Source: a virus. From it: 38,354 bases of DNA. Below, in pieces: positions 1-38,354 of this stretch. The notes under the pieces were generated by a model. The model was not told the origin of the DNA. It saw only the letters and a list, made by a program, of their open reading frames with translations, and did no database searches. Numbering within the stretch: position 1 is the first letter of the stretch; the number at the start of each line of letters is the position of its first letter. The DNA lies in the IMG/VR virus record IMGVR_UViG_3300042398_000318, positions 1-38,354 of that record; one strand, given 5' to 3'. The position numbers and the translations under genes were made by a program.

Positions 1-172
1 CAAACCAGTTCAGTAGTGTGCCGTTCCATTTACCGAAGTACGCAATGGCTTCGCCGTTGTGCATCTCGTGTGGTATGGCAAGTTTGGTTGTGGTCGGCTT
101 TGTAATGATGACATCACATAAGCATTCAACGGGATGTTCGGGTACTCCGCATCCCTCGGGGCTGGCTGTCAT
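1..172 (-). CDS. Hypothetical protein, 5' part (continues at right end)
   Basis: This is the first 57 codons of the gene seen complete at 37720-38154, cut by the window edge. The ATG at 172-170 is preceded on the minus strand by AAGGAGAAC, a good ribosome binding site. It follows the zinc-ribbon gene 312-440 after a gap of about 140 bases. The product is described under the complete copy. Confidence 0.8.
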   Translation of the reverse strand, partial: MTASPEGCGVPEHPVECLCDVIITKPTTTKLAIPHEMHNGEAIAYFGKWNGTLLNWF

Positions 173-208
173 GTTCTCCTTGTCATGTATCTGCTTACTG
201 GTTCAGGT

Positions 209-233
209 GCGCACGCCCTGCTGGGCGGTGCGC
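209..233 (-). other. GC-rich hairpin in the gap between two leftward genes
   Basis: GCGCACGCCC and GGGCGGTGCGC pair around a TGCT loop with one bulged base. It lies in the gap 173-311, downstream of the zinc-ribbon gene and upstream of the ATG at 172. A second, looser pairing (CCACCCCCTGTT around 251-263 with AACAGGGTGGG around 289-299) occupies the rest of the gap. No clear U-run follows on the minus strand, so attenuator, weak terminator or processing structure are all possible. The same sequence recurs at 38191-38215. Confidence 0.4.
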
Positions 234-311
234 TTCTTGGTCTGATGACCCCACCCCCTGTTGTCCCCCTCCCCTGCGGTCGTAAGACTAACAGGGTGGG
301 TTGGGAACCTG

Positions 312-440
312 TCAACGCTTGACCATTTTGTAGGTCTTGCCGTTGTGCCCATAACAGGTTGGTGGCTCTTTCAATTCTAGGTCGGTCTCAAAGGCGTTAC
401 CGCATTTGGGGCAGACCCAACGGTTCTTGGCTTTAGCCAT
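312..440 (-). CDS. 42-residue zinc-ribbon microprotein
   Basis: A short ORF runs from ATG 440-438 to TGA 314-312 and encodes 42 residues. It has a CPKCG knuckle near residues 10-14 (WVCPKCGNAF) and a later Cys and His (TCYGH near residues 29-33), which resembles half of a zinc ribbon with an irregular second metal site; the C-terminus is basic. An AGGGGG Shine-Dalgarno-like stretch lies about 12 bases upstream, and the previous gene stops only four bases before the start. Such tiny zinc proteins in phages often bind nucleic acid or host proteins, but no specific role can be assigned. The 3' end is repeated at 38294-38354. Confidence 0.7.
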   Translation of the reverse strand: MAKAKNRWVCPKCGNAFETDLELKEPPTCYGHNGKTYKMVKR

Positions 441-443
441 TGG

Positions 444-653
444 CTACCGACCCCCTGCGTTCTGTAGAGACTCACTTACCAGCCTCTCGTGGGCTGTGGC
501 GACCTTGTACGCTTCAATGGTGTACCACAGGGCGTCCATGGCGTCGTAGATTGTTTCTGACTCTTCCATGTTGTCTCCCCAGCGGTCTAGTGCGTCACCC
601 AACAGGTTGCTGACAACGAGTGCTGCTTTGATGATTTCTTCTGTGTGGTTCAT
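444..653 (-). CDS. Hypothetical helical protein
   Basis: The ATG at 653-651 overlaps the TGA of the Rpf-like gene in an ATGA junction and follows GGAG at good spacing, so it is preferred over an upstream in-frame GTG at 674. The product has 69 residues and is predicted from its heptad-like pattern to be mostly helical ([18 protein letters not shown], then [17 protein letters not shown]). It is acidic in the middle and I recognise no family. Its coupling to the Rpf-like gene suggests co-translation and possibly a shared process, but this is only positional evidence. Confidence 0.65.
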
Positions 654-1204
654 TTGTTTCTCCAAGCCGACCAAGGTGTCGGCACCGTAGGTTGTAGTGG
701 TTTGTTGTTGTAGATACAGCCCCAGCCGTTAAATCCGACCGGCTGTTGGAACACCCCGTCTTGTCTGAGGTATCCATGCAGGGCGATGCGGTTGGCTACA
801 TGAATTTGCTCTTCTCGTGTAGCGCCTTGAGGCCGTCCTGCGAACTGTCTGCCACCGAACGCCCTCCAAGTGGGTACGTAGATGCCAAGTCCGCCACCCC
901 ACATGCCAAGGTCTTGCCAATTTCCACCAGTCTCACATTGAGCAACAGCATCCCAATATGAATCCTTTGGAGTTCGTAGCGTAGCGAGCCACTCCATCGG
1001 CCACGCATTTCGCTCGGTCTGCGGTGGTACTGTGGAAGTGGTAGTGCTTGTCGTTGATTCGATGGCAAGTGTGTCAGTAGGTGTTTCGGCATTTGGTACC
1101 TCTGTTGTTGTGGAACTCCCCACGCTTGGGGAGTTCATTGGTTGGCTGACTAGGGATGGGTGTACGCTGATAAGAGCGAGGGATGATAGAAGTATTCTAA
1201 GCAT
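650..1204 (-). CDS. Rpf-like (resuscitation-promoting factor) peptidoglycan hydrolase, secreted
   Basis: The 184-residue product has an N-terminal hydrophobic segment (residues 1-20, [13 protein letters not shown]...) that looks like a signal peptide, a Ser/Thr/Pro-rich linker (about 24-66), and a C-terminal domain (84-165) with the Rpf signature: [13 protein letters not shown] with catalytic-type Glu91, [27 protein letters not shown]. Cys90 and Cys163 could form the family disulfide. Rpf domains are lysozyme/lytic-transglycosylase-like enzymes of Actinobacteria that cleave peptidoglycan and can wake dormant cells. The ATG at 1204 is chosen because it starts the signal peptide cleanly; an upstream GTG at 1216 is possible. 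It overlaps the preceding gene by eight bases. It lies in the leftward early-type operon, far from the M15 endolysin. Oddly, codons 24-30 are a copy of the CTCCCC/GGGGAG palindrome. Confidence 0.85.
1114..1135 (-). repeat. Palindrome family copy 1, inside the Rpf-like gene
   Basis: The arms AACTCCCC and GGGGAGTT enclose a six-base centre (AAGCGT on the minus strand). It occupies codons 24-30 exactly in frame and encodes N-S-P-S-V-G-S between signal peptide and linker. Copies 2-5 are all intergenic. Copy 5 has the same centre. Confidence 0.85.
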
Positions 1205-1415
1205 CCGGCATCTCACTTAATGCTCTAGACATAGAGTGTCCAAACTTGTTGTTGGCTGACATAAGAATCATGAGTTCCTCCTGAACGTCGGTGTGGTATT
1301 TGGTTGATGTAAGTCTATCAAGTTTCCTGGATAGTTGGTCACAGCCGATGCTGAGTGACTTCATGACGGCACGAAGTTCGTCAAAGGATAGTTCTGTGTA
1401 TATTTGTGGTGTCAT
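1197..1415 (-). CDS. Hypothetical coiled-coil protein
   Basis: The 72-residue product is helical in pattern ([21 protein letters not shown], then [19 protein letters not shown]) without membrane segment or recognisable motif. It starts at ATG 1415 after a short gap, with AAGTAAGGTACAAC upstream as a weak ribosome binding site, and its end overlaps the start of the Rpf-like gene. I do not recognise a family. The coupling may coordinate its synthesis with the Rpf-like enzyme. Confidence 0.65.
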
Positions 1416-1458
1416 TGTTGTACCTTACTTTGTGTTGACTGGGATTTGATTGGGCTTG

Positions 1459-2238
1459 TTAGAATGGTTCTACCCTGGTTGCAGACTGTGAATCAACAGG
1501 CACACAGTCCTCAAACAAACCGTCGAGACGGGTGATGACAGCCTCACGGACGCTGGTCACCCAGCGGTCTGTGTGCATGACATCGTGGTTACGACGAGCC
1601 TCGTCAACAATCTGTGTCATCAACTGAACAGGTAGTGTTGGCAACTGAATAAATGACGCATCCGGGGACACGGTGTTCAGGTGCGTACATGTCTCGGCAA
1701 GTTTGTCGGTCTTGCGGATTGAACGCCAGTTGTCATTCCAGTTGGTGATTGTATCCATCACGGATTGAATCTGTCCTGTCAGCCACAGGTTAGGACGGCG
1801 ACGGTTCTCACTAGCGAGCACAGTCTTAGATTGGACATGGTTAACCCATGTCTGTTTCATGTCGCTGATGCTGATGTTCTCACCTGTCAGGTCAACATTC
1901 ATGGATGGTGCAGTCTGAATGGCGTGACTGATGACGCTAGCGATGCGCTCGGTTGCGTTCTGTGCACACCATGCGTCAGGTGTGTTCATGTCAAAGCGAA
2001 CATGTGTGATTATGAATGTTTCGTGCTTGCTGGTTGGGTTTGGTGTAGGCATTGTTGTCTCCTGTTGTGTTGGTTGTGTAATTGTTTCAGCCATGCTGTA
2101 CCACTCGGTGTTACGCTCACGCATTGCGTTAGCACGAGCCATGAGGGTACGCATGTAGTCGGTTGTTGTGTTGACGACGATGGGTAAACCATCGGCGTCA
2201 TACTGAAGCGGTGCTACGTGTGGTCTTGTGTGTGGCAT
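1459..2238 (-). CDS. Hypothetical protein, 259 residues
   Basis: A soluble-looking protein with no transmembrane segment. The N-terminal 75 residues are rich in Thr, Pro and Gln (for example around 51-70), consistent with a flexible tail; the rest has mixed helix-like blocks (ERIASVISHAIQ, MDTITNWNDNWRSIRK, LMTQIVDEARRNHDVMH). No family is recognised. The start ATG overlaps the stop of the upstream amidotransferase gene (TAATG), so the two are translationally coupled and this protein could belong to the same modification pathway. That link is inferred from position only. Confidence 0.7.
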   Translation of the reverse strand: MPHTRPHVAPLQYDADGLPIVVNTTTDYMRTLMARANAMRERNTEWYSMAETITQPTQQETTMPTPNPTSKHETFIITHVRFDMNTPDAWCAQNATERIASVISHAIQTAPSMNVDLTGENISISDMKQTWVNHVQSKTVLASENRRRPNLWLTGQIQSVMDTITNWNDNWRSIRKTDKLAETCTHLNTVSPDASFIQLPTLPVQLMTQIVDEARRNHDVMHTDRWVTSVREAVITRLDGLFEDCVPVDSQSATRVEPF

Positions 2239-3185
2239 TAGAAGAAGTCAATAACTCCTTGGTCATAGTTGCCGATAGCGAGAGACTCGGCGTATTCCTG
2301 CTCTCGCATCTCGTCACGGTACTCCTCAACGAGGTCGGACTGGCGCTCATAGCATGAACACAGCAGGCGTTCTGACTCACAGAACCAGCATGCGTCACAC
2401 TGCGGACACAGGTCGGCGGTGTCAATGTTGTCCTCGTCAAAGTAATGCTGGAAGTCACAATGTGAACATGTCCACATCTCTGCCCACACCCATTCGCCAT
2501 TGGCTTCACGATATGAACAGTCAACGATACCACGGTCAGCGTCAGCGTATTCCTTGGGCACATAGATAGGTGACTCGGACTGCTTAGTCCAACCACTGGT
2601 GTACATGCCCGAACCGCTGTAGGTGTATCGAGCATACTTGTAACTCGTGTTAGACCACCACACACCGTCAGCATCGTAAGCACCCAAGTCCTCGTTGATG
2701 ATTGTGTAATCATTCTGCACATCAGGATTAGCAGATAGGAACACAAGTTTAGAACCAGCAGCAAACTTACTCATCTTCTTGCGCATCTTCTTGCTGTTGA
2801 GGATTGGAGAGCCACCCATCTGTGGAATCATTTCCTCTGCATAGATGCGGGTGTCAGACTTGCCATCACGCTCCTTGATAGGGAGCATGCCGTTGTGTGC
2901 CATAACAGTTTGAGTGTCACGACCAACTTGGAATGGATGACAATTCTCTACGGTCGTACCGCCATGGGTGGTGATACGAGAGTGGAACAATGCAGGCCCA
3001 CTGTGCTTAGCACGCACATCAAGAAACTCTTGCAGGATTCTGTCAAAGTCTAGACCGCTGTTGTGAATGATGCTGGTGCCGGCATGCACTGCAAAACCGA
3101 AACCATCAGGATTGTTGTAGGCACCGTTAGTGAGACTGTCGATGTCGGGTGTTGTGTATTCAGGAATAAAAGTCAGCAAACACAT
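2238..3185 (-). CDS. Class-II glutamine amidotransferase with C-terminal zinc cluster
   Basis: The 315-residue protein begins Met-Cys, so removal of Met would expose the Ntn-hydrolase nucleophile Cys2. Family motifs follow: NPDGFGFAV (26-33), FHSRITTHGG (67-76), NCHPFQV (81-87) and AHNG (96-99). Such domains hydrolyse glutamine and pass ammonia to a partner enzyme. The C-terminal third carries paired cysteines at 240/243, 260/263, 266/269 and 276/278 that look like a zinc-binding module, unusual for this family. The gene begins three bases after the amidoligase gene ends, with AAGGGGG as ribosome binding site. Known phage and bacterial operons pair class-II amidotransferases with amidoligases, so the two likely form one amide-forming system; the substrate is unknown. 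Confidence 0.85.
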   Translation of the reverse strand: MCLLTFIPEYTTPDIDSLTNGAYNNPDGFGFAVHAGTSIIHNSGLDFDRILQEFLDVRAKHSGPALFHSRITTHGGTTVENCHPFQVGRDTQTVMAHNGMLPIKERDGKSDTRIYAEEMIPQMGGSPILNSKKMRKKMSKFAAGSKLVFLSANPDVQNDYTIINEDLGAYDADGVWWSNTSYKYARYTYSGSGMYTSGWTKQSESPIYVPKEYADADRGIVDCSYREANGEWVWAEMWTCSHCDFQHYFDEDNIDTADLCPQCDACWFCESERLLCSCYERQSDLVEEYRDEMREQEYAESLAIGNYDQGVIDFF

Positions 3186-3188
3186 TGC

Positions 3189-4343
3189 TTAGACCCCCTT
3201 GCTTTCTGCGTATGTATTGAAGTTTGTGTATGTTTTTTGTTGGATAGTCCACTCACGGAACCTGTCCCAGTCGTGGGCGGACTTGATGGATACGGCATTG
3301 CGTGTGGCGTAGGCGTACTCAGCGACAGCGTGAGCAGCCTCGATACGAGCAATGAATGTTTGTGGTCGCAATGTACCCTTGAAGAAGCGCAACTCAATCG
3401 TGTTGCGGTTCTGCAGGTTGAGTGCAACATAGCGGTCGTTGTTGCGCACATGAGCACCAACGGCCATGCCTTTGGTGTAGTCAAGCATGCGCTCTAACTC
3501 GTAGTCAGACCACGATGCGTACGAGGACTCAGAACGACCAGCAATCTTCTTCCATTGTTCTGCGTTGCGGTAGAACATTGACATGAAGCGGTACATGGTT
3601 GTTGGGTTCTTCTGAAAGAAGTCCTTGTTGATATGAATGTGCAAACCACATGTACGGGTGTTAGCGGAACGCATACCGATTGCAGACAACTCACTGAGTC
3701 GTTGCCATGGGAAATGCTCAGCAACAAACTCACGAGACAACGGATGTGAAACCATTTCAAAGCCGTCGTTGAGTGAGCCGTCATGCTTTAGGTAGCACCA
3801 CTTGTCGTAGATGGATGATGCAAGTTCTGCACCTTCGTAACGCTCGCACTCTGTCGCTTCCATCTCCAACTCAAAGCCGGTCACAGTCTGATGACCGAAA
3901 CCGAATGATGTGCTGGTGGTACTGCCGTCCTTGCGAACGATAAAGAACTGTGGGTCAGGACGATATGAGTAGTCGTGAATCAAACCGTTTTGCTCCTCGC
4001 TGCATTCGTCGCATATGTCACCGTTGTAATACTCGTCATGGCTATCACAGTAGGAGTAGTTCTGTGAACAATCAGGACAGATTGTGTTGTGATTGACAAC
4101 GATTGCTTCATCCGAGTATGTGTGATACATCGAGTCGCATTCATTGCATGTCTCTCGGTGTTCGTCACAGTCATCACAAAGATGAATCGTTGTGAGGTTG
4201 CCGTTGCGACGGTTCCAATAGCCCTGATAGAACTCATGGATGTTGAGTTCATCTGTTGGGTATGTCTCGTCACACCACGAACAGTCCTGAGTGTCAGGTA
4301 CTGCGTCATCGTCGTTGACTGGGTTTTCATTGATGTTTGTCAT
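3189..4343 (-). CDS. Putative amidoligase (COOH-NH2 ligase) with three N-terminal zinc modules
   Basis: The 384-residue product has two parts. Residues 21-114 contain Cys/His pairs arranged as three likely zinc modules: C21/C24 with C56/C59, C66/C69 with C89/C92, C99/H102 with C111/C114. Residues 155-350 carry the amidoligase (Amidoligase_2) pattern of the glutamine-synthetase-like ligase fold: GFELEME (156-162), KHDGSLNDGFEMVSHPL (186-202), CGLHIHINKDFF (232-243) and NTIELRFFKGTL near 319-330. These enzymes join carboxyl and amino groups with ATP. The adjacent amidotransferase could supply ammonia. AAAGGAG precedes the ATG, and a CTCCCC/GGGGAG palindrome lies 34 bases upstream in the leader. 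Substrate (protein, peptide or cell-wall precursor) cannot be read from the sequence. Confidence 0.82.
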   Translation of the reverse strand: MTNINENPVNDDDAVPDTQDCSWCDETYPTDELNIHEFYQGYWNRRNGNLTTIHLCDDCDEHRETCNECDSMYHTYSDEAIVVNHNTICPDCSQNYSYCDSHDEYYNGDICDECSEEQNGLIHDYSYRPDPQFFIVRKDGSTTSTSFGFGHQTVTGFELEMEATECERYEGAELASSIYDKWCYLKHDGSLNDGFEMVSHPLSREFVAEHFPWQRLSELSAIGMRSANTRTCGLHIHINKDFFQKNPTTMYRFMSMFYRNAEQWKKIAGRSESSYASWSDYELERMLDYTKGMAVGAHVRNNDRYVALNLQNRNTIELRFFKGTLRPQTFIARIEAAHAVAEYAYATRNAVSIKSAHDWDRFREWTIQQKTYTNFNTYAESKGV

Positions 4344-4376
4344 TGCTGACTCCTTTGTTTTGTTGTTGTTTGTTGG

Positions 4377-4398
4377 AACTCCCCAAGCATGGGGAGTT
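4377..4398 (-). repeat. Palindrome family copy 2, leader of the amidoligase gene
   Basis: AACTCCCC and GGGGAGTT enclose AAGCAT (plus strand). The arm overlaps the TAA of gene 4397-4618, and the element lies 34 bases upstream of the amidoligase ATG. As RNA it forms an eight-pair hairpin with six-base loop. No strong U-run follows, so it is not a textbook intrinsic terminator. Confidence 0.85.
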
Positions 4399-4618
4399 AT
4401 GAACGGTGGTTGCCATTCACATCTACGACACTTAGGTCAAGGACGGGTGTCAATAACCATGTCATGCCGACATTGTTCTCACGCTCAAACATAGGCAAGT
4501 CTGCCTCGTCTACGAATGTGCGGTAGTTGGTGTCCGTGTTGATTGCCTGCCAATACAGCAACGCACCAGCGTTGCGTGCTTTGGTTGCCACACGGTCAAT
4601 GTTGTTATCGGGTTTCAT
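4397..4618 (-). CDS. Hypothetical protein, 73 residues
   Basis: A small soluble protein without recognisable motif; it includes a possible helix at the N-terminus (NNIDRVATKARNAGALLYW) and a hydrophobic stretch VGMTWLLTPVLDLSVVDV. The ATG at 4618 immediately follows the stop of 4619-4831. The stop codon is embedded in palindrome copy 2. Its role is unknown. Confidence 0.6.
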   Translation of the reverse strand: MKPDNNIDRVATKARNAGALLYWQAINTDTNYRTFVDEADLPMFERENNVGMTWLLTPVLDLSVVDVNGNHRS

Positions 4619-4831
4619 TTAGTTCTCCTCAAAGAAATCGTTGTCGGTGTCAAAGGTAAAGAGTTCATCATCAGTAATGAACTGGCGGAAAGTAACAGCA
4701 TTGTCATAACGATGGCAACGCTCAATGTCAAGACGGTCAATGGCGTTCTCAAGCCACCATGTCACACGCCTACGCAGACGATACTTCGCCGGCACGACAT
4801 ACCGCAGATACAACTCGGTGCGCTTATCCAT
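4619..4831 (-). CDS. Hypothetical protein, 70 residues
   Basis: The N-terminal half is basic (YVVPAKYRLRRRVTWWLENA) and the C-terminal half is acidic (DDELFTFDTDNDFFEEN), a charge layout seen in many small phage proteins that bind nucleic acid or host factors. No family is recognised. The ATG overlaps the preceding stop (TAATG), indicating translational coupling in the small-gene cluster 4397-6794. Confidence 0.62.
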   Translation of the reverse strand: MDKRTELYLRYVVPAKYRLRRRVTWWLENAIDRLDIERCHRYDNAVTFRQFITDDELFTFDTDNDFFEEN

Positions 4832-5130
4832 TAGAAATCCTCCTCATCGTCGTCGTTCTGTTTATCAAAGAAGACTCTTTTTGCTTCATTAAGTCTCAAG
4901 TGAAGTTTTTCGTATGAGATGGCGTTAATCACAGCATAGAACGATTTCGCTTCATCTTGATTGAACTCCATTATTACCTTTCCATCTTTCTTGAGGACCA
5001 TAAACAAGATGTCGCCAGCCTTGTTTAACTCAGCCTGCATCTCATAACCATTACGGATTGAGATAGCAGAACTTGTGTCATAACCATGAACCATTTCGGT
5101 TAATGCCATATCAACGAATGCGTTAATCAT
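4831..5130 (-). CDS. Hypothetical protein, 99 residues
   Basis: A soluble protein with alternating beta-like and helical segments (DILFMVLKKDGKVIMEF, then EAKSFYAVINAISYEKLHLRLNEA) and a strongly acidic tail (DDDEEDF). No known motif. It is coupled by TAATG to the preceding gene. The pattern would suit a small compact domain, but I cannot assign it. Confidence 0.65.
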   Translation of the reverse strand: MINAFVDMALTEMVHGYDTSSAISIRNGYEMQAELNKAGDILFMVLKKDGKVIMEFNQDEAKSFYAVINAISYEKLHLRLNEAKRVFFDKQNDDDEEDF

Positions 5131-5414
5131 TACTTTACCTCCTTACGCTTAGCAACGAATGGCTTGAACTGTGACTTGTGATTACCGCTATCGCAACGAT
5201 TACGGCAACAGAAGTAAACCTTGTCAGAACGAACAGGAGTTGCAAAAGCAAAACGCTCGTACTCATCTGTGCCTGCTTCTTCCAACTCAGCCCAATCAAG
5301 GAGAATTGATTCAATGTTGTCGGTATCACGAGCAATGACACGATTGAACTCCGCAAGGAAGTTCTTAGTGTCAGTGTACGGAACACCGTTGATGGATAAT
5401 GATGTAGTAGGCAT
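5130..5414 (-). CDS. Hypothetical protein with cysteine-rich C-terminal segment
   Basis: The ATG at 5414 (MPTTSLSINGVPY) follows AAAGGGCT at good spacing. An earlier in-frame ATG at 5477 lies inside palindrome copy 3 and is rejected. The 94-residue product has a C-terminal stretch VYFCCRNRCDSGNHKSQF, with Cys-Cys, Cys and His that could bind one metal ion, and a basic tail (AKRKEVK). The N-terminal part is helical. The family is not recognised. It couples to the next gene by TAATG. Confidence 0.65.
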   Translation of the reverse strand: MPTTSLSINGVPYTDTKNFLAEFNRVIARDTDNIESILLDWAELEEAGTDEYERFAFATPVRSDKVYFCCRNRCDSGNHKSQFKPFVAKRKEVK

Positions 5415-5467
5415 GGTTAGCCCTTTCTGTGAACTCAACATTTCTATTGAGTAGCAAGGGCACCAAC

Positions 5468-5489
5468 AACTCCCCAAGCATGGGGAGAT
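5468..5489 (-). repeat. Palindrome family copy 3, between two small genes
   Basis: The arms CTCCCC and GGGGAG with centre AAGCAT match copies 2 and 4; the outer bases are AA and AT, as in copy 4. It lies 30 bases after the stop of 5520-5693 and about 54 bases before the ATG of 5130-5414. Confidence 0.82.
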
Positions 5490-5519
5490 GCTGATGCACT
5501 TGTACCCGACAGGAATTAT

Positions 5520-5693
5520 CTAGGCGATACGGTCGCCCTTGATACCAGTACGAGATGACATGCGAGCGAACTCGTACTCACGCAACGCAACCAACTCTTC
5601 TTTCTCGTCAGCAATTTGATTAGCCCACTTATCAGCAGGCACAAAGCCGAACAACTCAATTTCGATTTGCTCCAACATTTCAGATGTAGTCAT
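5520..5693 (-). CDS. Hypothetical 57-residue protein
   Basis: A short ORF runs from ATG 5693 to TAG 5520 and is preceded by the strong ribosome binding site AAAAGGAAATAATC. The product is helical and acidic in the middle (MLEQIEIELFGFVPADKW, then IADEKEELVALREYEFARM). No family is recognised. Its leader contains two hairpins with the same architecture as the leader of 5986-6210. Confidence 0.68.
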   Translation of the reverse strand: MTTSEMLEQIEIELFGFVPADKWANQIADEKEELVALREYEFARMSSRTGIKGDRIA

Positions 5694-5761
5694 GATTATT
5701 TCCTTTTGTTTTCTGACTCGTCAGTACGGACATTTATCCGTAGACGCCCGAAGGCGTTTCG
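5694..5761 (-). promoter_or_regulatory. Double-hairpin leader L1
   Basis: On the minus strand the gap between gene 5762-5983 and the ATG at 5693 forms ACGCC-TTCG-GGCGT (5757-5744, a UUCG-type tetraloop stem) and then TACGGA with TCCGTA around a six-base loop (5742-5725), followed by ACTGACGA and AACAAAAGGAAATA. The same order of elements is found in leader L2. Function may be mRNA protection, processing or translational control. Confidence 0.6.
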
Positions 5762-5983
5762 TCATTTAACAATCGTGATGTAACCGTCACGCAGTTCTGC
5801 AATGTGCTTACACCACACATCATGAACAATGGACTGAAACACAGCACACTCAGATGCAGTATCAAAAGTCATGAGCACTTGTGTGACATCACCCATTGCA
5901 TGATTGACAGATTGCGTGAACACAACAATGCCACGGTCTGCGACACGGTCGTAACCGATTACTTTCTCGCCGTTGATTTCCAT
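5762..5983 (-). CDS. Hypothetical protein, 73 residues
   Basis: A compact beta-rich looking protein (EINGEKVIGYDRVADRGIVVF, later TQVLMTFDTASECAVFQSIV) with no recognised motif and no membrane segment. ATG at 5983 follows the upstream gene's stop by two bases, with AAGGAAAGTAATC as ribosome binding site that overlaps the end of that gene. Function unknown. Confidence 0.62.
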   Translation of the reverse strand: MEINGEKVIGYDRVADRGIVVFTQSVNHAMGDVTQVLMTFDTASECAVFQSIVHDVWCKHIAELRDGYITIVK

Positions 5984-5985
5984 GA

Positions 5986-6210
5986 TTACTTTCCTTCCAA
6001 CTCATTCATTTGCTGATTGAAAAACTCAACAGCCTGAGCCAAACCACGAGGAGGCAAACCCGCACGAAAACGGAACCACTCATTCAAACGCAACATGCGT
6101 TCAGCAAAATTATGTGAAGACATAATCCTTCGGGCATGCGCCTTAGCAACGGCACAATGCCATTCAATGTCGCCATTGCGAATGGCAACAACATCAGAAG
6201 ATGTAAGCAT
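5986..6210 (-). CDS. Hypothetical protein, 74 residues
   Basis: A mostly helical small protein with basic patches (AVAKAHARRIMSSHNFAERM, LNEWFRFRAG) and an acidic end (NQQMNELEGK). No family is recognised. ATG at 6210 is preceded by AACAAAAGGAAATATCAAA, the same leader end as in 5520-5693. The leader carries a double hairpin and palindrome copy 4. Confidence 0.62.
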   Translation of the reverse strand: MLTSSDVVAIRNGDIEWHCAVAKAHARRIMSSHNFAERMLRLNEWFRFRAGLPPRGLAQAVEFFNQQMNELEGK

Positions 6211-6296
6211 TTTGATATTTCCTTTTGTTATCTAACTAATCGTCAGTCACACTCACAGGTGTGATACGCCTCACGGCGTTTCATAGGGTAGATACA
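6211..6296 (-). promoter_or_regulatory. Double-hairpin leader L2
   Basis: Reading leftward after palindrome copy 4: ACGCC with GGCGT around a four-base loop (6279-6266), then TCACAC with GTGTGA around a six-base loop (6264-6247), then GACTGACGA and the ribosome binding region AACAAAAGGAAATA. The first stem and the ACTGACGA block match leader L1, while the second stem differs in sequence but not in form, which suggests selection on structure. Confidence 0.6.
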
Positions 6297-6316
6297 AACT
6301 CCCCAAGCATGGGGAG
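6297..6316 (-). repeat. Palindrome family copy 4, just after a stop codon
   Basis: CTCCCC and GGGGAG flank AAGCAT as in copies 2 and 3. It begins one base after the TAA of gene 6318-6794 and opens the leader of 5986-6210. Confidence 0.85.
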
Positions 6317-6317
6317 A

Positions 6318-6794
6318 TTACTTGAGACCAAGCGCCTTGATGATTTCATCACGAACGGCTGGCGAATACTTAGCGAGACGCTTGCGAGCCTCTGATGCAG
6401 TAATCGTGATAGCCGTTGCAGGCACAGGCTTGCTGTCGCTCTTCGCACGCTGACCTGCAGGAGCCCAAGTAATGAAAGCACCGATAGTCACATACTCATA
6501 ACGAGTTTCGTTGAGGAACGCTTGCTTTGCAGCCTCGTACGAACCGTACTTACGAACAGCACGAGTGATAGCGCCAAGCGTGTTCTCAAACGACTTGAGT
6601 TTGTAATCGGTAATGCGCTTCGTGTCACTTGCGTAGAACTTGTGATACTTCGCAGGTGAATCGCCACGCTTCACCATGTCGCCATGACGCAAGCACCACT
6701 CTTCCCAAAAATGCTCGTTGCCTTTCTTGTTGAGCAAGTCTGCCTTGCGTGATGTATTCCATGCGGTAAGTCCGCTTGCCTTGTTGGTGCTAAT
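6318..6794 (-). CDS. Hypothetical basic protein, possible ATT start
   Basis: The reading frame is open from 6794 to 6318. The only textbook-type start is TTG at 6737 (139 residues), but 57 bases upstream an ATT codon (6794-6792) stands exactly where its neighbours have ATG, after AACAAAAGGAAAAAC, the same leader end as in two adjacent genes. With ATT the product has 158 residues (ISTNKASGLTAWNTSRKADLL...). The protein is basic, with blocks KYHKFYASDTKRITDYK and SEARKRLAKYSPAVRDEIIK, and shows no recognised family. Palindrome copies flank it on both sides (6297-6316 and 6814-6835). The frame is secure; the start is uncertain. Confidence 0.68.
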   Translation of the reverse strand: MSTNKASGLTAWNTSRKADLLNKKGNEHFWEEWCLRHGDMVKRGDSPAKYHKFYASDTKRITDYKLKSFENTLGAITRAVRKYGSYEAAKQAFLNETRYEYVTIGAFITWAPAGQRAKSDSKPVPATAITITASEARKRLAKYSPAVRDEIIKALGLK

Positions 6795-6813
6795 TGTTTT
6801 TCCTTTTGTTAGA

Positions 6814-6835
6814 AACTCCCCACGCTTGGGGAGTT
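6814..6835 (-). repeat. Palindrome family copy 5, upstream of gene 6318-6794
   Basis: The arms AACTCCCC and GGGGAGTT enclose the centre AAGCGT on the minus strand, identical to copy 1 inside the Rpf-like gene. It lies 20 bases upstream of the proposed ATT start, in the leader. Confidence 0.85.
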
Positions 6836-7088
6836 GATGGATTAGCGAGATAGGAACACAGACAACCAGCGTTGAATCGCCAGCGGGCTGTGCGCCCTCT
6901 CACCTATGAAAGTGTCGGACTTATCCTGCCCTGCCCTCCTTGTGCTTGTTGGGGTTTAGGCACACACAGACACGCACACGCACCCCCCTCGGGGCAGGCC
7001 CCCCCCGTGCCGCCCGACATATAAGGGACTCATCTCACGCAGGGCGAGAGCGTTAATTCCTAGATACCCCCTAGACTAAGGGTTTATT
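6836..7088. other. Non-coding, C-rich (plus strand) region
   Basis: No convincing gene is seen on either strand in these 253 bases. The plus strand holds long C runs (about 6983-7006), a CA/CG-repeat stretch (cacacacagacacgcacacg region 6961-6980) and an imperfect GC-rich fold around 6983-7010. A 38-codon GTG frame on the minus strand (from about 6918) follows a stop directly and has no near ribosome binding site, so it is not called. Structured RNA, a replication origin or a promoter region are possibilities without decisive evidence. Confidence 0.45.
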
Positions 7089-18165: not shown

Positions 18166-18547
18166 TGACAGTTGAAACTCCACGCAATAATCCACCTGAA
18201 CAGATATGGACGGCTCCTCTTATGGAGACGCTCCGTTCTTCGGATGCGCGTGCTCTTCAACATATTTTTACTAGCCTAAAAGAATACCTAAATGGTGTTC
18301 AGGCAACTATTTCTAGCAACTACTATAATCTTGTTATTGGTTCTGTTTCTCAAGGCGTAGCTGGGGCAAGCATTACCGGAACATTCCCTAACCAAACTTT
18401 AAATCTTAGTTTACCTCAGGGAGCCACCGGACCTGCTGGTCCTGCTGGCCCGCAGGGTCCTGGTGGGTTTTCAACTTTAAACCTTGATGGTGGACAACCT
18501 GATTCTGTGTATGGTGGTCTACCTTTGATTGATTCGGGGAATATCTA

Positions 18548-18548
<1 letters not shown>
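18165..18548 (+). CDS. Short fibre linker with collagen-like segment
   Basis: A 127-residue protein: helical N-terminus (MEVET... [24 protein letters not shown], about 19-42), beta region, a short Gly-X-Y run ([16 protein letters not shown], about 86-101), and the ending [16 protein letters not shown] with LPLIDSGNI, a pattern common at the end of phage fibre proteins. Its helix may bind the tail; its collagen run may join the neighbouring 748-residue fibre. Coupled by overlapping start/stop on both sides. Confidence 0.7.
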
Positions 18549-20794
<2,246 letters not shown>

Positions 20795-23539: not shown

Positions 23540-26500
23540 ATGGCTAATCCGTATACAGATATGCGGGCTATCACTGCCCGTCTTGGGCAGGTTCAGCCCC
23601 GTGGTATTTCCGCCCCTGGCGGGTTGAATCCGACTTCCCCAACTCGCTCTAAAGAGTCTATCCAGTTGGGTAGGGCAGCCAACAAGTTTGCTATTCAGAA
23701 CCCACAGCTTCGTGAAGAGATTGAACGCATCGCCAGTGGTTCTCGTTCTGAGAAGCCTAGTGGATTTTTGGGGACTGTTCTCGGCAACCCTGTTACCAAA
23801 GTTGCTTTAAAGGGTCTTGAAGCTTTTGCTGTTCCTGGCCGTGCCGTTGTGTCGGCTGCTCGTGAACTTACTGACGTTGTTGACGGTGACGCCAAAACTA
23901 AGGCTAGCTTTGGTGACTTTGGCAAGCAAGTCAAGGATTCACGGTTTGGTTTTGGTAGAGCATTCAAAATTGACACTGGCAGCAAGTGGCTTGACAGGGC
24001 TATTGGTTTTGTTGGTGACGTTGCCCTTGACCCATTAACGTACGCAACCTTCGGTGCGTCCGCAGGTCTTAAGGGTGTTCAGGGGTCCTATAAGGTTGGT
24101 AACTATGCTAACAAGATGACCCTTGCTGCTAAGGTGTTGGAGAATACTGGCGACAATGTGCTTGCGGCTGCTGTTGCTCGTCGTGGTCGTGTTGCTTTGC
24201 GCAACAACCCCGAAGTTCTTGAGAGGGTTGGCGCTAACAAGTTTGGTGTTTACTTCTTTGGTAAGCGTGTGAAGGTCGGCAAGGATGGAATGGGTCTACG
24301 TGTTCCTCTTAGTGGAACAATTGGAGAGATTGGTGAGTCCACTCTTTCTCGTGCTCGTCTTGGTATAACTAACACACGCATGGGTAAATACATGCAGAAG
24401 ATGACGATGCCTAAGGATTTCTTGGATATGCGTCTTGGTGTTGCTCGTGGCACTTTAAATCCTGAGGATGCTGCTGATGCTTTGAAGTTGTTCCAGGTTG
24501 TTCCTAACCAGCGTCTTGCCCGTGCTTCTGCACAGCAAACACTTGAGCAGCAGTTGATGGGTGTTTTAAAATCTGAGGAACCAAACATTGAGGCTTACCG
24601 CAACTCTGTGTACAAGTTTATTGAGGACCCAACTCGCTTGGCTGTTGCCAGCGAAGCTGAGAAGCGGGCTTATGCCGTGTGGAAAGGTTTCTTAGACCAG
24701 CAGTTTGACAACGTTTCTTCTGCCTGGAAGAACGTTGATGAGGCTGCAGAGATTGGAAAGACAGAGAATTATTTCCCTAGAGTCCGTAGTGATGAAGCAC
24801 AGAGATACATGGATTCTAATGCTAGTTTTGCTGCTGATATTCGTGGCATTTATATGGATGACCCTTTTGCTTTACCGGGTGCCTTTACTCCTCGTTCTCT
24901 TCGTGAGGGTAAGAAATGGTTTGGTGTTCCTTTAAAGAAGGGAGACTTAACAACCGAAAAGCTGAATCAACTTGCCCGCACTAACGGCGGTATTGATTTT
25001 GATTTCTTTGAAACAGACGTTGTTGATGTTATGCGCAAATACATCTCCGACACTGCTGACGAGCTTGGAATCATTCAGCGTAATGCCGACCTAAAAGAGA
25101 CCGGTTTCTTTAGGCGTATCGAGGAGCAACGCATCCGTCAACTTGAGGTTGACGAGGATGATGTTGCTTCTGCTCGTGCTTTCCTGGATGAACAAAACAA
25201 CATGATGGTTGGCGTTGAGCAGGATTTCCGTAAGTCTATTACCAACCTTATTGATAATGTTCGTGCTGAACAGGTTCGTGTTTCACAAGGCCTTGCTACT
25301 GGCGAGCGCTTGGCTCAAGATATGAGCAAGTATTTGTATGACATGGTTGATGATGTTACCCGTAAGTCTGAGTTCATTGCTGGGCTGAAAGAGAATCTGT
25401 CTAAGCTTTGGGGTAAAGAATCTGAGATTCCAATGTATGCTCTCAGTGATGACTTCCCAGTTATGTTGCGTCCTGTTCTTGGACAGTATGACCAAATGGT
25501 TAAAGACTTGGATGATTTCAACAAGATTATTCAGGAACTTCAAGAGCAGGCAATGAAGGCCGACTATGATGTCTTGGCAGCTAAAGAGGCGCTGCGTCAA
25601 ATTGAAGAGGGCGGTAACGCTGCTCATGTTGCGATGAAAGAAGCACAGGAGTCAATCCGTTCCGCCATGGAAATGGCTAACGTTATTGAGGGTGGATGGG
25701 ATTCTGTTGTTCTTGGTCGTTCTCCTCGTGCTGGTGGAACAGCAGCTCAGAAGGTTCTTCGAGACATCAGTGACATTCTTGGTGTACGCAGAACCGCTAC
25801 AGGCAAGAAGTCTCAGGTAGCAAGAGCCAAGGCTCTTGGTTCTGAAGGAAAGCTTAAGGATTTCCTTCGTGGTAAGGTAGAGCCAGGTTCTAAAGAATCA
25901 CGTGCATATGATTTCTACATGTCACAGTGGAACAAGGTTGCCGGTCAAGGTCAGGCTGGCCTTAAGCCTTCTGCTGTTTCAGAAATGACTGAGGATAAGT
26001 TCTTTAATATTATTTTGAACTCGTCTTCTCCTGACATTAACCTTGTTGACTTGCGTGTTGCTTCTTTGTATGCGCTTGGTCGTGATATTAAGTTGTACAA
26101 CGCCGAAAGCATTGACGAACTTCCGAAGTTTGTTCGTAGTTTCCATGAGACACTAAATAGGAATCTTGAGTTGGCTGCTTGGGATGAGTCGGGTCGTGTT
26201 GCACGTTCTAATGCTACAAAGACATTGGACCAAGAGATTGATGCAATTAATGCACGCTGGGGCGCCATGTATGAAGAGGCTACGTACATGCGTGACACTC
26301 TTGGTGATTATTTTGATGTTATCAAGTTTGTTGAGGACGACATTGCAAAGCAGTTGGGCAATGACTGGGAATCTCTACCGTTTGATGAGTCAATCGCCCC
26401 AGCACTTGAAGAGGCTATCGGTGGCGCACGCCTACCTTTCCTGTATGACGATTACATTGATGGTGCGGAAGAGTTGTTTGGTCGTCAGGCAACGCTTGGT

Positions 26501-29500
26501 GATGTTGTATCGCATTTGAAGGAACGCCATGAAACCATGCGTGTCGCCTATGAAGATGTTCCCGTCGAGATTGACCCTGATAGTGCCAGGAAGATTGCAA
26601 ATCTTGAACAGAATCGTCAGGAACAGATAGATTCTTTCGGTGAAGAATATGCAAATAATGAAGAGTTTTTAACTGATTTTGTTAGAGAAAGAGCTCGCAT
26701 TAAACGTGATGCAGAAACAACAAGAGAAAATTTAATTAAAAAGTACGAAGCAGAGATTGCTGCTGCCAAGTCACGAAGCAAAGCATCTTCAAGACCTGGA
26801 TTTGAGTTCCGCCCAAGCGAGGCTCGCAAGATGCGAGCTGCGGACACAACAAAAGAAACGTTAACTCGTAGTTTGGTTGAGTACCAGGCTGTATCCGATT
26901 CGGTTCAGAAGTTTGAGGCAATTGCTGGATACCTTGCACCGCATGGTCTTGTTCCTACCGAGAACATGTGGCGTGGAATTATGAAGACAGTTGCAGACCA
27001 GTATGGTTCGCAGTATGGCGACAAGGTTCGTCGTATTCAGTCTGCAGAAACAAAGTTTACAGAGTTCTATACTGACTATACGAAGAAGCTTCAAGAAATG
27101 AAGCGTCTTCCAAGAGAAGAACAAATTCCTGTATCTAGATTGTTCAAAGAGTCTCTTGAAAATTTAATGTCCGGTCCTGATTCTGAAATCATGTCTGAAC
27201 TGTTTGGCCCCACAATGAGCAGACTTGTTGACAAGGGCGACATGTTTGCAGATGTTCGTTCTATAAACTCTGCTATCAGAAATGCACCAAACGAAAATGT
27301 TCGTAACGCTGCAAAAGCAAGACTTGATAGATATGTTAAAACATACGTTATTCCTTGGGCTAAAGAACTTGACCCCACTATTCGTGCGGACAAGGGTCCT
27401 GCTCTTAGACTGTTGAAGAACTCTGTTGCCGGTGAAGGAACAGGCCTGAAGACTGCCAGCAAGGCTGTGCTTGCCGAGATTAGAACTCCTCTTTCACGTG
27501 ATGCTTCTGAGATTGACGTTTATCGTTGGTTTAACTCAATGATGAAGACCGTTGACCCTAAGACTGGTGACACCATATCTCCTGGCATTATGGCCCAAAG
27601 GCGAGAAAGCTACCGCACATCAGAGCTGTTCTTTAATCGTATGCGTGATGGTTATCTTGATGTTGAGCAGTTCTTTAAAACATTAGACGGTTCTCAGCAC
27701 ACTCCTTCAAGCTATGCTCTTCAGATGCTTGAACTTGCTAACAGGCTTGATGGCCCTAGTAATGTTATTTTCCAAAAAAGAATGGAACTTCAAAGCGCTG
27801 TTGATGAACTTCAACTTATCGCAGAAGAAAAGGGATTGTCTACCAGCCAAAAAGCACAGTTGAGCCGTGCGCAGAACCAACTTAATCAGCTTGATAAGTT
27901 GGGTTCCAGCTATATGGGTATTTACAAGTCCGGCGATAAGGCAGTTGCTAGCATCGTTAAAGAAGCAGACGAAGCAGAACTTGTTGCTCGTACTGCCCGT
28001 GAAATGACTGACGCTTATAAAAACCCTGACTTAACGTTGGATGAACTCAAGACTATTGGTTTTACCAAGCAAATGATTGCGGAGCGTGAAGAGGTTTTAG
28101 CTCTTGAGCGTTTTGATGCTTCTCTTGATTATGCTAAAGCCATCCAGGACCAGGAGATGGTTTCTTTCTTAGACTCTGTATCGGGTGTGAACTTTGCAGA
28201 GTTTAACGATGGTATTGTTATTGGTACTGAGCAGATAGAAAAGTTTGCTGATGACTTTATTCCTGAGACTGCAGGTAGCGTGCAGGCACAGGTTGAGGTT
28301 CTGCAGAAACAACTTGACGAAGTTGACAGGTTTGAAGCCGAAAGCCGGGCTAGAGTTGTTCAGCCCTACACTGTTCAGCGCAATGGCAAGACAACTTGGC
28401 AAAGTGCGGAGCATAGGCGGGCTGCACAAATGAAGCTTGACCAGTGGGCTACGAACGAACAGGGTAGATTCAGGGCTGAGCGTACAAGACTGCAAGGGTT
28501 AATTGATACCGCTGAGGAGCGCACGATTGCGTCTACTCGTGAGTCTCTTGGTTTTGAGTTTGTTCCTGTGTTTGCTAAGATGCCTGATGGTTCTGCTATT
28601 AAGTTTACGCAGGATGAATGGGATTCTTTATTTACTCCTCCTTACGGCCAAAAAGACCTTAACTTGATTGTTGATGAAATCAACGACATAAAAGCAAAGA
28701 GAAAAACCGCACAGGGTCTTCTTAACAAGGCTATTGAATCTTCTCAAAGAAGTTCATGGGACCCAGCTAAGAGAAGGTATGTTCGTGAGCTTGAGAAGCG
28801 TATTGCTAAATTGGATATTGAGATTAAGAAGCCTGAAGCCGAGTTTAATCGCAGTATGCCTGGTGTTCGTAATGCTGCTTTAGAGAAGACAAGAATTCTT
28901 ATTAAGCAGATGCAGGAAGCGACACCGCAGGATGCTGGTGTTAGCTGGATGAAACAATGGGAGAATGCTGCCGAGCAGGCAGCTACCTCTCAGCGTGTAA
29001 CTAACTTGCAGGCTCGCAGGATTTGGTCGGAAGGTCAAATGGTTGGCGCATATGAAGCCACAGAAAATGCTGCTGGTGTTTCTTGGGTCAACGCTTTGGC
29101 ACACAGAAACGGTAATGCCAACTACACTTTCTCATATTACTTTGATAAGATTGTTAAATCTGATTCTAATGTAATGCGTACTCCTAGTTCTTGGACAAAT
29201 GTTGACAGGGGAATGCAGGAGCGCCGAAACCTTCTGCAGATTATGTGGCGTAGTAACAAGTCTCACTCTGTTCTTGAACAGCGTGAGGAGCTTGTTCGTG
29301 CTGCTGCTTTGACAGCATATGACGACTTTGATAAGTATGCTCGGATGTCACAAAGGGCTGCTGTTCAGGCACGCAAGATTGCGGATGAGTCACGGTTTGT
29401 TGTTAATGATGTGCAGGAATCTTTCCGTAAGTCAATTTCTGAGATTCGTAACGCAGAGCTTCAAGCGGCTAAGGCTGCTGGCGCTGAGTTCGACACAAAG

Positions 29501-37723: not shown

Positions 37724-38154
37724 AGTTCGCCTCGTCTTTCTAATCGTTGTCGAAGTTTGGTCACATACGACTTGTGGATGGTGACACCAAAGATGTCAAT
37801 CAGTTCCTGTCGTAGTGGCGTTGGTTGTTTGCCGTCTCTGATACCCTCCACCAAATAGTGGTAGGCATCGTCGGGCATGGTTCGTTTGTATCGTGTGGCG
37901 TACGATGGGTTAGCGTGCACAGGCGGGACTTCTAGTTCCTGTCTGTACTTGTGGATGGCTTGCCATGCTACGTCTGCTAGTTCAAACCAGTTCAGTAGTG
38001 TTCCGTTCCATTTACCGAAGTACGCAATGGCTTCACCGTTGTGCATCTCGTGTGGTATGGCAAGTTTGGTTGTGGTCGGCTTTGTAATGATGACATCACA
38101 TAAGCATTCAACGGGATGTTCGGGTACTCCGCATCCCTCGGGGCTGGCTGTCAT
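37720..38154 (-). CDS. Hypothetical protein with HTH-like C-terminus
   Basis: A 144-residue protein. The first 25 residues have Cys and His (EGCGVPEHPVECLCDV) that may bind metal. The C-terminal third, GKQPTPLRQELIDIFGVTI and YVTKLRQRLERR, has a helix-turn-helix look. The centre (YFGKWNGTLLNWFELADVAW) is aromatic. The ATG at 38154 follows AAGGAGAAC. It is the first of the replication set and may be a regulator or DNA-binding factor. The 5' part is repeated at 1-172. Confidence 0.65.
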   Translation of the reverse strand: MTASPEGCGVPEHPVECLCDVIITKPTTTKLAIPHEMHNGEAIAYFGKWNGTLLNWFELADVAWQAIHKYRQELEVPPVHANPSYATRYKRTMPDDAYHYLVEGIRDGKQPTPLRQELIDIFGVTIHKSYVTKLRQRLERRGEL

Positions 38155-38190
38155 GTTCTCCTTGTCATGTATCTGCTTACTGGTTCAGGT

Positions 38191-38215
38191 GCGCACGCCC
38201 TGCTGGGCGGTGCGC
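38191..38215 (-). other. GC-rich hairpin, right-end copy
   Basis: This is the copy of the hairpin 209-233 in the terminal overlap. It lies upstream of the ATG at 38154 and downstream of the (partly repeated) zinc-ribbon gene. Confidence 0.4.
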
Positions 38216-38293
38216 TTCTTGGTCTGATGACCCCACCCCCTGTTGTCCCCCTCCCCTGCGGTCGTAAGACTAACAGGGTGGGTTGGGAACCTG

Positions 38294-38354
38294 TCAACGC
38301 TTGACCATTTTGTAGGTCTTGCCGTTGTGCCCATAACAGGTTGGTGGCTCTTTC
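38294..38354 (-). CDS. Zinc-ribbon microprotein, 3' fragment in the terminal overlap
   Basis: These are the last 61 bases of the gene that is complete at 312-440; the rest lies past the window edge. The sequence is identical to the left copy. Confidence 0.7.
   Translation of the reverse strand, partial: KEPPTCYGHNGKTYKMVKR

Follow-up and report, generated by a model that had tools for sequence, protein, structure and literature searches.

The amidoligase and glutaminase gene pair

The window analyzed here is the whole 38,354-base stretch of a virus record in IMG/VR, IMGVR_UViG_3300042398_000318. Its left arm carries two adjacent leftward genes encoding a predicted amidoligase, here called ALD, and a predicted class II glutamine amidotransferase, here called GAT, each with its own cysteine-rich zinc section. 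An earlier note, made from the DNA letters alone, had described the two genes, the 3 bases between them and their motifs, and the open reading frames (ORFs) and translated sequences confirm this description. The features of the pair are as follows.

3189 to 4343, minus strand: ALD, predicted amidoligase (carboxylate-amine ligase of the glutamine synthetase, GS, fold) with an N-terminal zinc array, 384 aa; from Pfam, PHROGs, AlphaFold2 and Foldseek
3192 to 3881, minus strand: predicted ALD catalytic domain, residues 155-384, with GFELE, GLHIH and IELRFF; from invariant residues
4002 to 4283, minus strand: putative ALD zinc array, residues 21-114, three treble-clef-like units; from Cys conservation, the model and a LIM profile match
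2238 to 3185, minus strand: GAT, predicted class II glutamine amidotransferase (N-terminal nucleophile, Ntn, glutaminase) with a C-terminal zinc tail, 315 aa; from Pfam, PHROGs, Foldseek and residues
2352 to 2468, minus strand: putative GAT zinc tail, residues 240-278, CxxC-x16-CxxC-x2-CxxC-x6-CxC; from the 8-Cys signature in homologues

ALD matched Amidoligase_2 (PF12224) with an E-value of 2.6e-8 and 34.5 bits, against a Pfam cut-off of 22, and phrog_16683 with an E-value of 5.7e-36; no NCBIfam model matched it. The AlphaFold2 model of ALD has a mean pLDDT of 90.8. Its best Foldseek matches (E 1.3e-5) were YbdK, GS, gamma-glutamylmethylamide synthetase, Dop and PafA, together with plant glutamate-cysteine ligase, and almost no well-scoring matches fell outside the GS/YbdK/GCS/Dop/PafA group. 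The TM-scores were low (0.3-0.4), and the fold is therefore assigned from the consistency of these matches together with the Pfam match. Residues E158, E160, H235, H237, R270, N309, E317 and R319 were invariant across 92 homologues, and they include the E-x-E, H-x-H and E-x-R motifs, which we take to be the catalytic motifs of GS. With a GS-type fold and these conserved motifs ALD has the features that define members of the GS/GCS group, and its model indicates that it has a GS-type amidoligase fold. ALD thus resembles GS, YbdK, gamma-glutamylmethylamide synthetase, Dop and PafA in fold and in signature acidic, His and Arg residues, and differs from them by a sequence identity of 6-14%, by its zinc array and by its paired glutaminase.

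GAT matched GATase_4 above the Pfam cut-off (E 4.9e-6) and phrog_25883 (E 9.1e-35), while the NCBIfam search gave only a weak glmS-like match. In the AlphaFold2 model pLDDT is about 95 in the domain and near 80 in the zinc tail. The best Foldseek match was the glutaminase domain of GlmS (E 7e-9), the GlmS structure 1xff being best by both sequence and fold, and the profile alignment of GAT to GlmS shares the elements H-x-R-x-x-THG, N-x-HP and HNG. Residues C2, R70, H74, G75, N98, G99 and D111 were invariant across 102 homologues. GAT therefore combines the N-terminal catalytic Cys, the oxyanion Asn-Gly, the glutamine-binding Arg and Asp and the GlmS-like fold that define class II Ntn amidotransferases, and its model indicates that it carries a GlmS-type class II glutaminase domain. 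It shares fold and catalytic residues with GlmS and PurF, but lacks a sugar or phosphoribosyl pyrophosphate domain and has a zinc tail instead. Both enzyme identities in the earlier note are thus upheld by profile searches above the Pfam cut-offs, the amidoligase fold is present in the model, and no catalytic residue is lost in either protein.

Taken together, ALD and GAT probably form a two-subunit glutamine-dependent amide synthase, a judgement that covers the enzyme and not its target. GAT, with its N-terminal Cys as nucleophile after removal of Met, would hydrolyse glutamine and free ammonia. ALD would activate a substrate carboxylate with ATP, as GS does, and would join the ammonia to the activated carboxylate to give a primary amide. 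We infer this chemistry from sequences and models, and to that extent the amide bond formation with glutamine-derived ammonia proposed earlier is supported.

Zinc modules on both proteins

In the window, the ALD array consists of the units C21/C24/C56/C59, C66/C69/C89/C92 and C99/H102/C111/C114, and the GAT tail contains C240, C243, C260, C263, C266, C269, C276 and C278. The Pfam models of the two families do not include these zinc sections, yet in the ALD-GAT subfamily they are usual. The tail signature CxxC-x(n)-CxxC-x2-CxxC-x(n)-CxC was kept by 99 of the 102 GAT homologues. ALD homologues start with a run of CxxC-x(8-31)-CxxC units whose number varies from one to five: about one in a clade of around 20 phage sequences, three in the window and about five in Nocardia. 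C66, C69 and C89 were present in every aligned homologue row. Because the cysteine-rich sections are conserved in distant homologues, they are not due to chance. The zinc section that the earlier note saw on each protein is therefore present and conserved; a reading in which these sections set this phage apart was rejected, since they are the rule in the subfamily. On the catalytic-domain tree the few-unit state of ALD needs 3 changes, against 19 in shuffles, so the number of units is inherited by clade and gain or loss is rare.

In the ALD model, each of the three window units has its second CxxC at the start of a short helix, which is the treble-clef pattern. The ALD profile matched LIM-domain chains in the PDB (E 2.7e-5), and one structural relative in BFVD bears the name LIM domain protein. 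Pfam LIM reached at best 0.023, under the cut-off, in one relative, and a PDB search with a single Nocardia zinc-array sequence gave no match; for these reasons "LIM-like" stays a weak label, and by sequence the units may at most weakly resemble LIM. No convincing homology between the ALD zinc section and the GAT zinc tail was found with hhalign. The two modules are not strictly linked. To the earlier note's question whether zinc extensions go together in related pairs the answer is yes as a rule, with the GAT tail nearly always present and the ALD units in varying copy number, but it is not absolute: a Manatee Spring podovirus has the ALD zinc array and no GAT zinc tail, the GAT of OM43 phage MEP402 has no zinc tail, and one further GAT (locus L027) retains only the first four Cys.

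Gene order and spread on mobile elements

In 112 of 112 distinct loci on uncultivated viral contigs that hold both genes, the window included, ALD comes first and GAT next on one strand, with -20 to 84 bases between them. Over all fetched loci, which take in Nocardia and cultured phages, ALD lies directly upstream of 172 of the 179 8-Cys GATs that have enough upstream sequence; the remaining 7, from Nocardia and Micromonosporaceae, were called as ORFs that are too long and extend back across an ALD. An ALD gene next to a GAT gene on a mobile element defines the Iyer-type phage amidoligase-GAT pair, and the window contains such a pair. Marvinvirus carries the pair with both zinc sections, as do plasmids of Mycobacteroides abscessus, Mycobacterium intracellulare and M. 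paragordonae. MEP402 also carries an ALD-GAT pair. Some phages (L150, L159, L166, L168 and L170) have, upstream of the pair, a second amidoligase-like gene that is shorter and has no zinc units.

The pair was also found in 34 of 98 sampled Nocardia genomes, usually with exactly two GAT copies, and the Nocardia loci that were read show the tandem order ALD-GAT-ALD-GAT (L196-L210, L230-L232). Profile searches of the neighbouring genes identified an integrase and DUF2637 (L201, L203, L230) as well as DUF4192, SSB and a weak ParB match (L231, L232). Because of the integrase, DUF2637, DUF4192 and SSB neighbours we conclude that the Nocardia copies lie on integrated mobile elements. These elements are probably conjugative: the single ALD-GAT pair of Labedaea (L204, L233) has a TrwC relaxase in its vicinity, and a type IV secretion system coupling protein is encoded close to a Micromonosporaceae pair (L209). 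Among the profile-searched genes beside the Nocardia pair there was no relaxase. Near the cassette a small protein recurs (L230 18368-18937, L231 6321-7004, L232 13363-14004, L233 11960-12568), which has a CQVCG motif in some copies; its similarity was judged by eye, and the one copy searched had no Pfam match. With PADLOC, an SspD match (7.6e-8) was obtained at L231 5318-6292, a few genes from the Nocardia ALD-GAT cassette; ALD and GAT themselves match no known defence family there.

This distribution bears on the idea that the pair has no macromolecular target and serves nitrogen assimilation or makes a small amide metabolite. The GS fold would suit such a role, and a Planctomycetes phage has related genes for which a part in nitrogen metabolism has been suggested (PMC10945688). 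Tandem copies and dissemination by mobile elements are, however, easier to reconcile with conflict than with nutrition, and a metabolic role leaves the elaborate conserved zinc modules on both proteins unexplained, so that we consider it improbable.

Neighbouring genes in related loci

Downstream neighbours were surveyed in the 87 viral loci with at least 2.5 kb of downstream sequence. A WhiB-like gene follows the pair in 61 of them (a representative matches Pfam Whib with 8.2e-9). The WhiB-like family is typical of actinobacteria and their phages. Since most relatives adjoin whiB, actinophages are the main carriers of the pair; in the left arm of the window no WhiB relative was found. In 51 of the 87 loci one of three mutually exclusive and mutually unrelated lysozyme- or transglycosylase-like genes lies 1-2 kb downstream, one of these three classes having no Pfam match and being judged by eye. 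These genes are a hint toward an envelope target.

PD-(D/E)XK nuclease and DnaB genes are neighbours in some loci. Together with the general capacity of zinc fingers to bind nucleic acid, and with the SspD match (E 7.6e-8) near one Nocardia pair, they could point to an enzyme that is guided to DNA or RNA by its fingers and amidates a modified base or a nucleic-acid-bound protein. The nuclease and helicase neighbours nevertheless belong to the ordinary replication machinery, no match to a DNA-binding finger family rose above its cut-off, and no hypermodified-base genes were present among the searched window genes, which cover part of the window. An activity of this kind therefore seems very improbable to us.

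Relation to known systems

An amidoligase-GATase pair has been reported in the OM43 phages MEP401 and MEP402 (PMC10580990). Their genes are adjacent, in the same order and with the same enzyme domains as in the window, but their GAT has no 8-Cys tail, and their ALD is longer with an irregular Cys region. That paper cites discussions of the pair for phiEco32, where a cell-wall change against superinfection was proposed (Iyer 2009), and for Marvin. Podoviral cassettes with additional ligases have been described as acting in peptidoglycan modification (Iyer 2009 and Hardies 2013, as cited in PMC5498523). The cassette of phiEco32, LUZ24, tf and RIO-1, which is among the early genes, likewise combines Amidoligase_2 with a class II GAT, but adds an ATP-grasp protein, a gamma-glutamylcyclotransferase and a second COOH-NH2 ligase, and the ALD of Pseudomonas phage tf has no zinc section. 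Neither ATP-grasp nor gamma-glutamylcyclotransferase was found among the profile-searched genes in 650-6737 or in the most recurrent neighbour families. A close parallel in architecture is gp112-gp113 of RedRaider77, a Marvinvirus (cluster S mycobacteriophage). These neighbouring genes, ALD then GAT, are about 30% identical to ours; the ALD is Cys-rich at its N-terminus and the GAT ends in the 8-Cys tail. They are annotated just as glutamine amidotransferase domain proteins. RedRaider77 differs in host and genome type, and its ALD continues at the C-terminus into an additional region that contains a separate CxCxxC.

The literature searched contains no description of the zinc architecture or of tandem Nocardia pairs; Iyer 2009 and the Marvin genome paper were outside this search and may mention zinc sections. 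Within this scope, the pair is already known in kind, and what is new is that the zinc architecture holds across the family and that the pair extends to plasmids and Nocardia elements.

Possible target of the amidation

We presume that the two subunits form a complex, that ammonia is transferred within it and that the zinc modules have distinct roles. Two zinc parts are constant, unit C66-C92 of ALD and the 8-Cys tail of GAT, and these would most likely hold the subunits together; the extra, variable ALD units would most likely dock the target. The earlier note had speculated that the zinc fingers might recognise a host protein or a partner bound to nucleic acid. AsnB/LtsA provides a precedent for glutamine-dependent amidation of peptidoglycan. 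A second one is MurT-GatD (PMC3267633). By analogy, the target would most likely be a host-envelope carboxylate, in a peptidoglycan stem peptide or its precursor, and the envelope change would be to the advantage of the resident phage, plasmid or integrated element. This choice of target is a guess from precedent, which we hold tentatively as a real possibility.

Several observations weigh against this explanation of enzyme and target. The cell-wall idea was first applied to the phiEco32/LUZ24 cassette, whose ATP-grasp and gamma-glutamylcyclotransferase partners are missing from the pair described here. The lysis genes nearby may reflect just a conserved gene order within a phage clade. An ALD relative in Clostridioides phage AR1086-1 has neither a GAT nor zinc units. 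Finally, a zinc array of a protein-interaction type suits a macromolecule as target no less than it suits a lipid-linked precursor.

This last point leads to the strongest rival for the target, in which the pair amidates, or ligates to, side chains of specific host or competitor proteins captured by the LIM-like units, on the model of PafA and Dop, which belong to the same superfamily and act on proteins. Dop and PafA are among the structural relatives of ALD, zinc units that vary in number and are treble-clef or LIM-like are a protein-binding type of module, and the occurrence of the pair on phages, plasmids and integrated elements is in keeping with a conflict enzyme. On the other hand there is no candidate target, the ALD motifs E-x-E, H-x-H and E-x-R look, as we read them, nearer to GS than to PafA, and the requirement for ammonia suggests a simple amide over a protein conjugate. 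We regard protein modification as rather unlikely. A broader proposal can be set beside the envelope target: actinophages, plasmids and integrated elements would share a dedicated amidation system targeted by its zinc array. The variable row of treble clefs would select the macromolecule to be amidated by the GS-type ligase, and in Nocardia the system would be doubled into two neighbouring enzymes, presumably for two targets. We put it forward as a doubtful, speculative generalization.

Other features of the window

Two further features had been assigned to the same unit by the earlier note.

1459 to 2238, minus strand: downstream gene, 259 aa; from ORF calls, with homologues in near relatives only
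4374 to 4398, no strand assigned: palindrome AACTCCCCAAGCATGGGGAGTT upstream of ALD; one of five left-arm copies

The ATG of the downstream gene overlaps the GAT stop codon (TAATG), and from this arrangement translational coupling to GAT is probable. Its place in the unit holds in this respect only: with homologues confined to the nearest relatives it is accessory and stands outside the conserved pair. It had no Pfam, NCBIfam or confident PHROG match. The palindrome, AACTCCCC-N-GGGGAGTT (22-25 bases), occurs in 1-7000 as five near-identical copies (1111-1135, 4374-4398, 5465-5489, 6294-6318 and 6811-6835), with 10 strand matches against 0.55 expected by chance. The sequence, which forms a strong hairpin when folded, is found at matching places in near relatives. 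Because the left arm has five copies, a role as an amidoligase-specific regulator was rejected, and so was a place for the palindrome in the unit; it is a repeated left-arm element, possibly an operator or an RNA hairpin.

Because the two ends of the record repeat each other (1-372 and 37983-38354, with 1-300 matching 37983-38282 at 99%), the window is probably a complete, circularly assembled genome. Its genes include terminase, portal, head, collagen-like tail fibre, DnaB and primase genes, and a Transglycosylas (PF06737) gene was found at 650-1216 by Pfam search. The tail fibre gene contains collagen-like repeats with a 9-base period at 18420-19272, and an ORF of 2692 aa at 23540-31618 has only a weak PHROG match. 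A megablast search with the first 25 kb of the window gave no match to cultured phages, and Rfam and tRNA scans of the window found nothing.

Significance for the amidoligase-glutaminase family

Phages commonly carry amidoligase-glutaminase pairs, which are usually classed as auxiliary metabolism or cell-wall modification. The subfamily described here is now defined by a fixed architecture, the zinc array of the ligase and the 8-Cys tail of the glutaminase. Marvinvirus in Mycobacterium smegmatis is a tractable member, where standard knockouts and mass spectrometry could reveal the target. If the proposal is true, zinc-array-targeted amidation would represent a previously undescribed system of post-translational or envelope modification.

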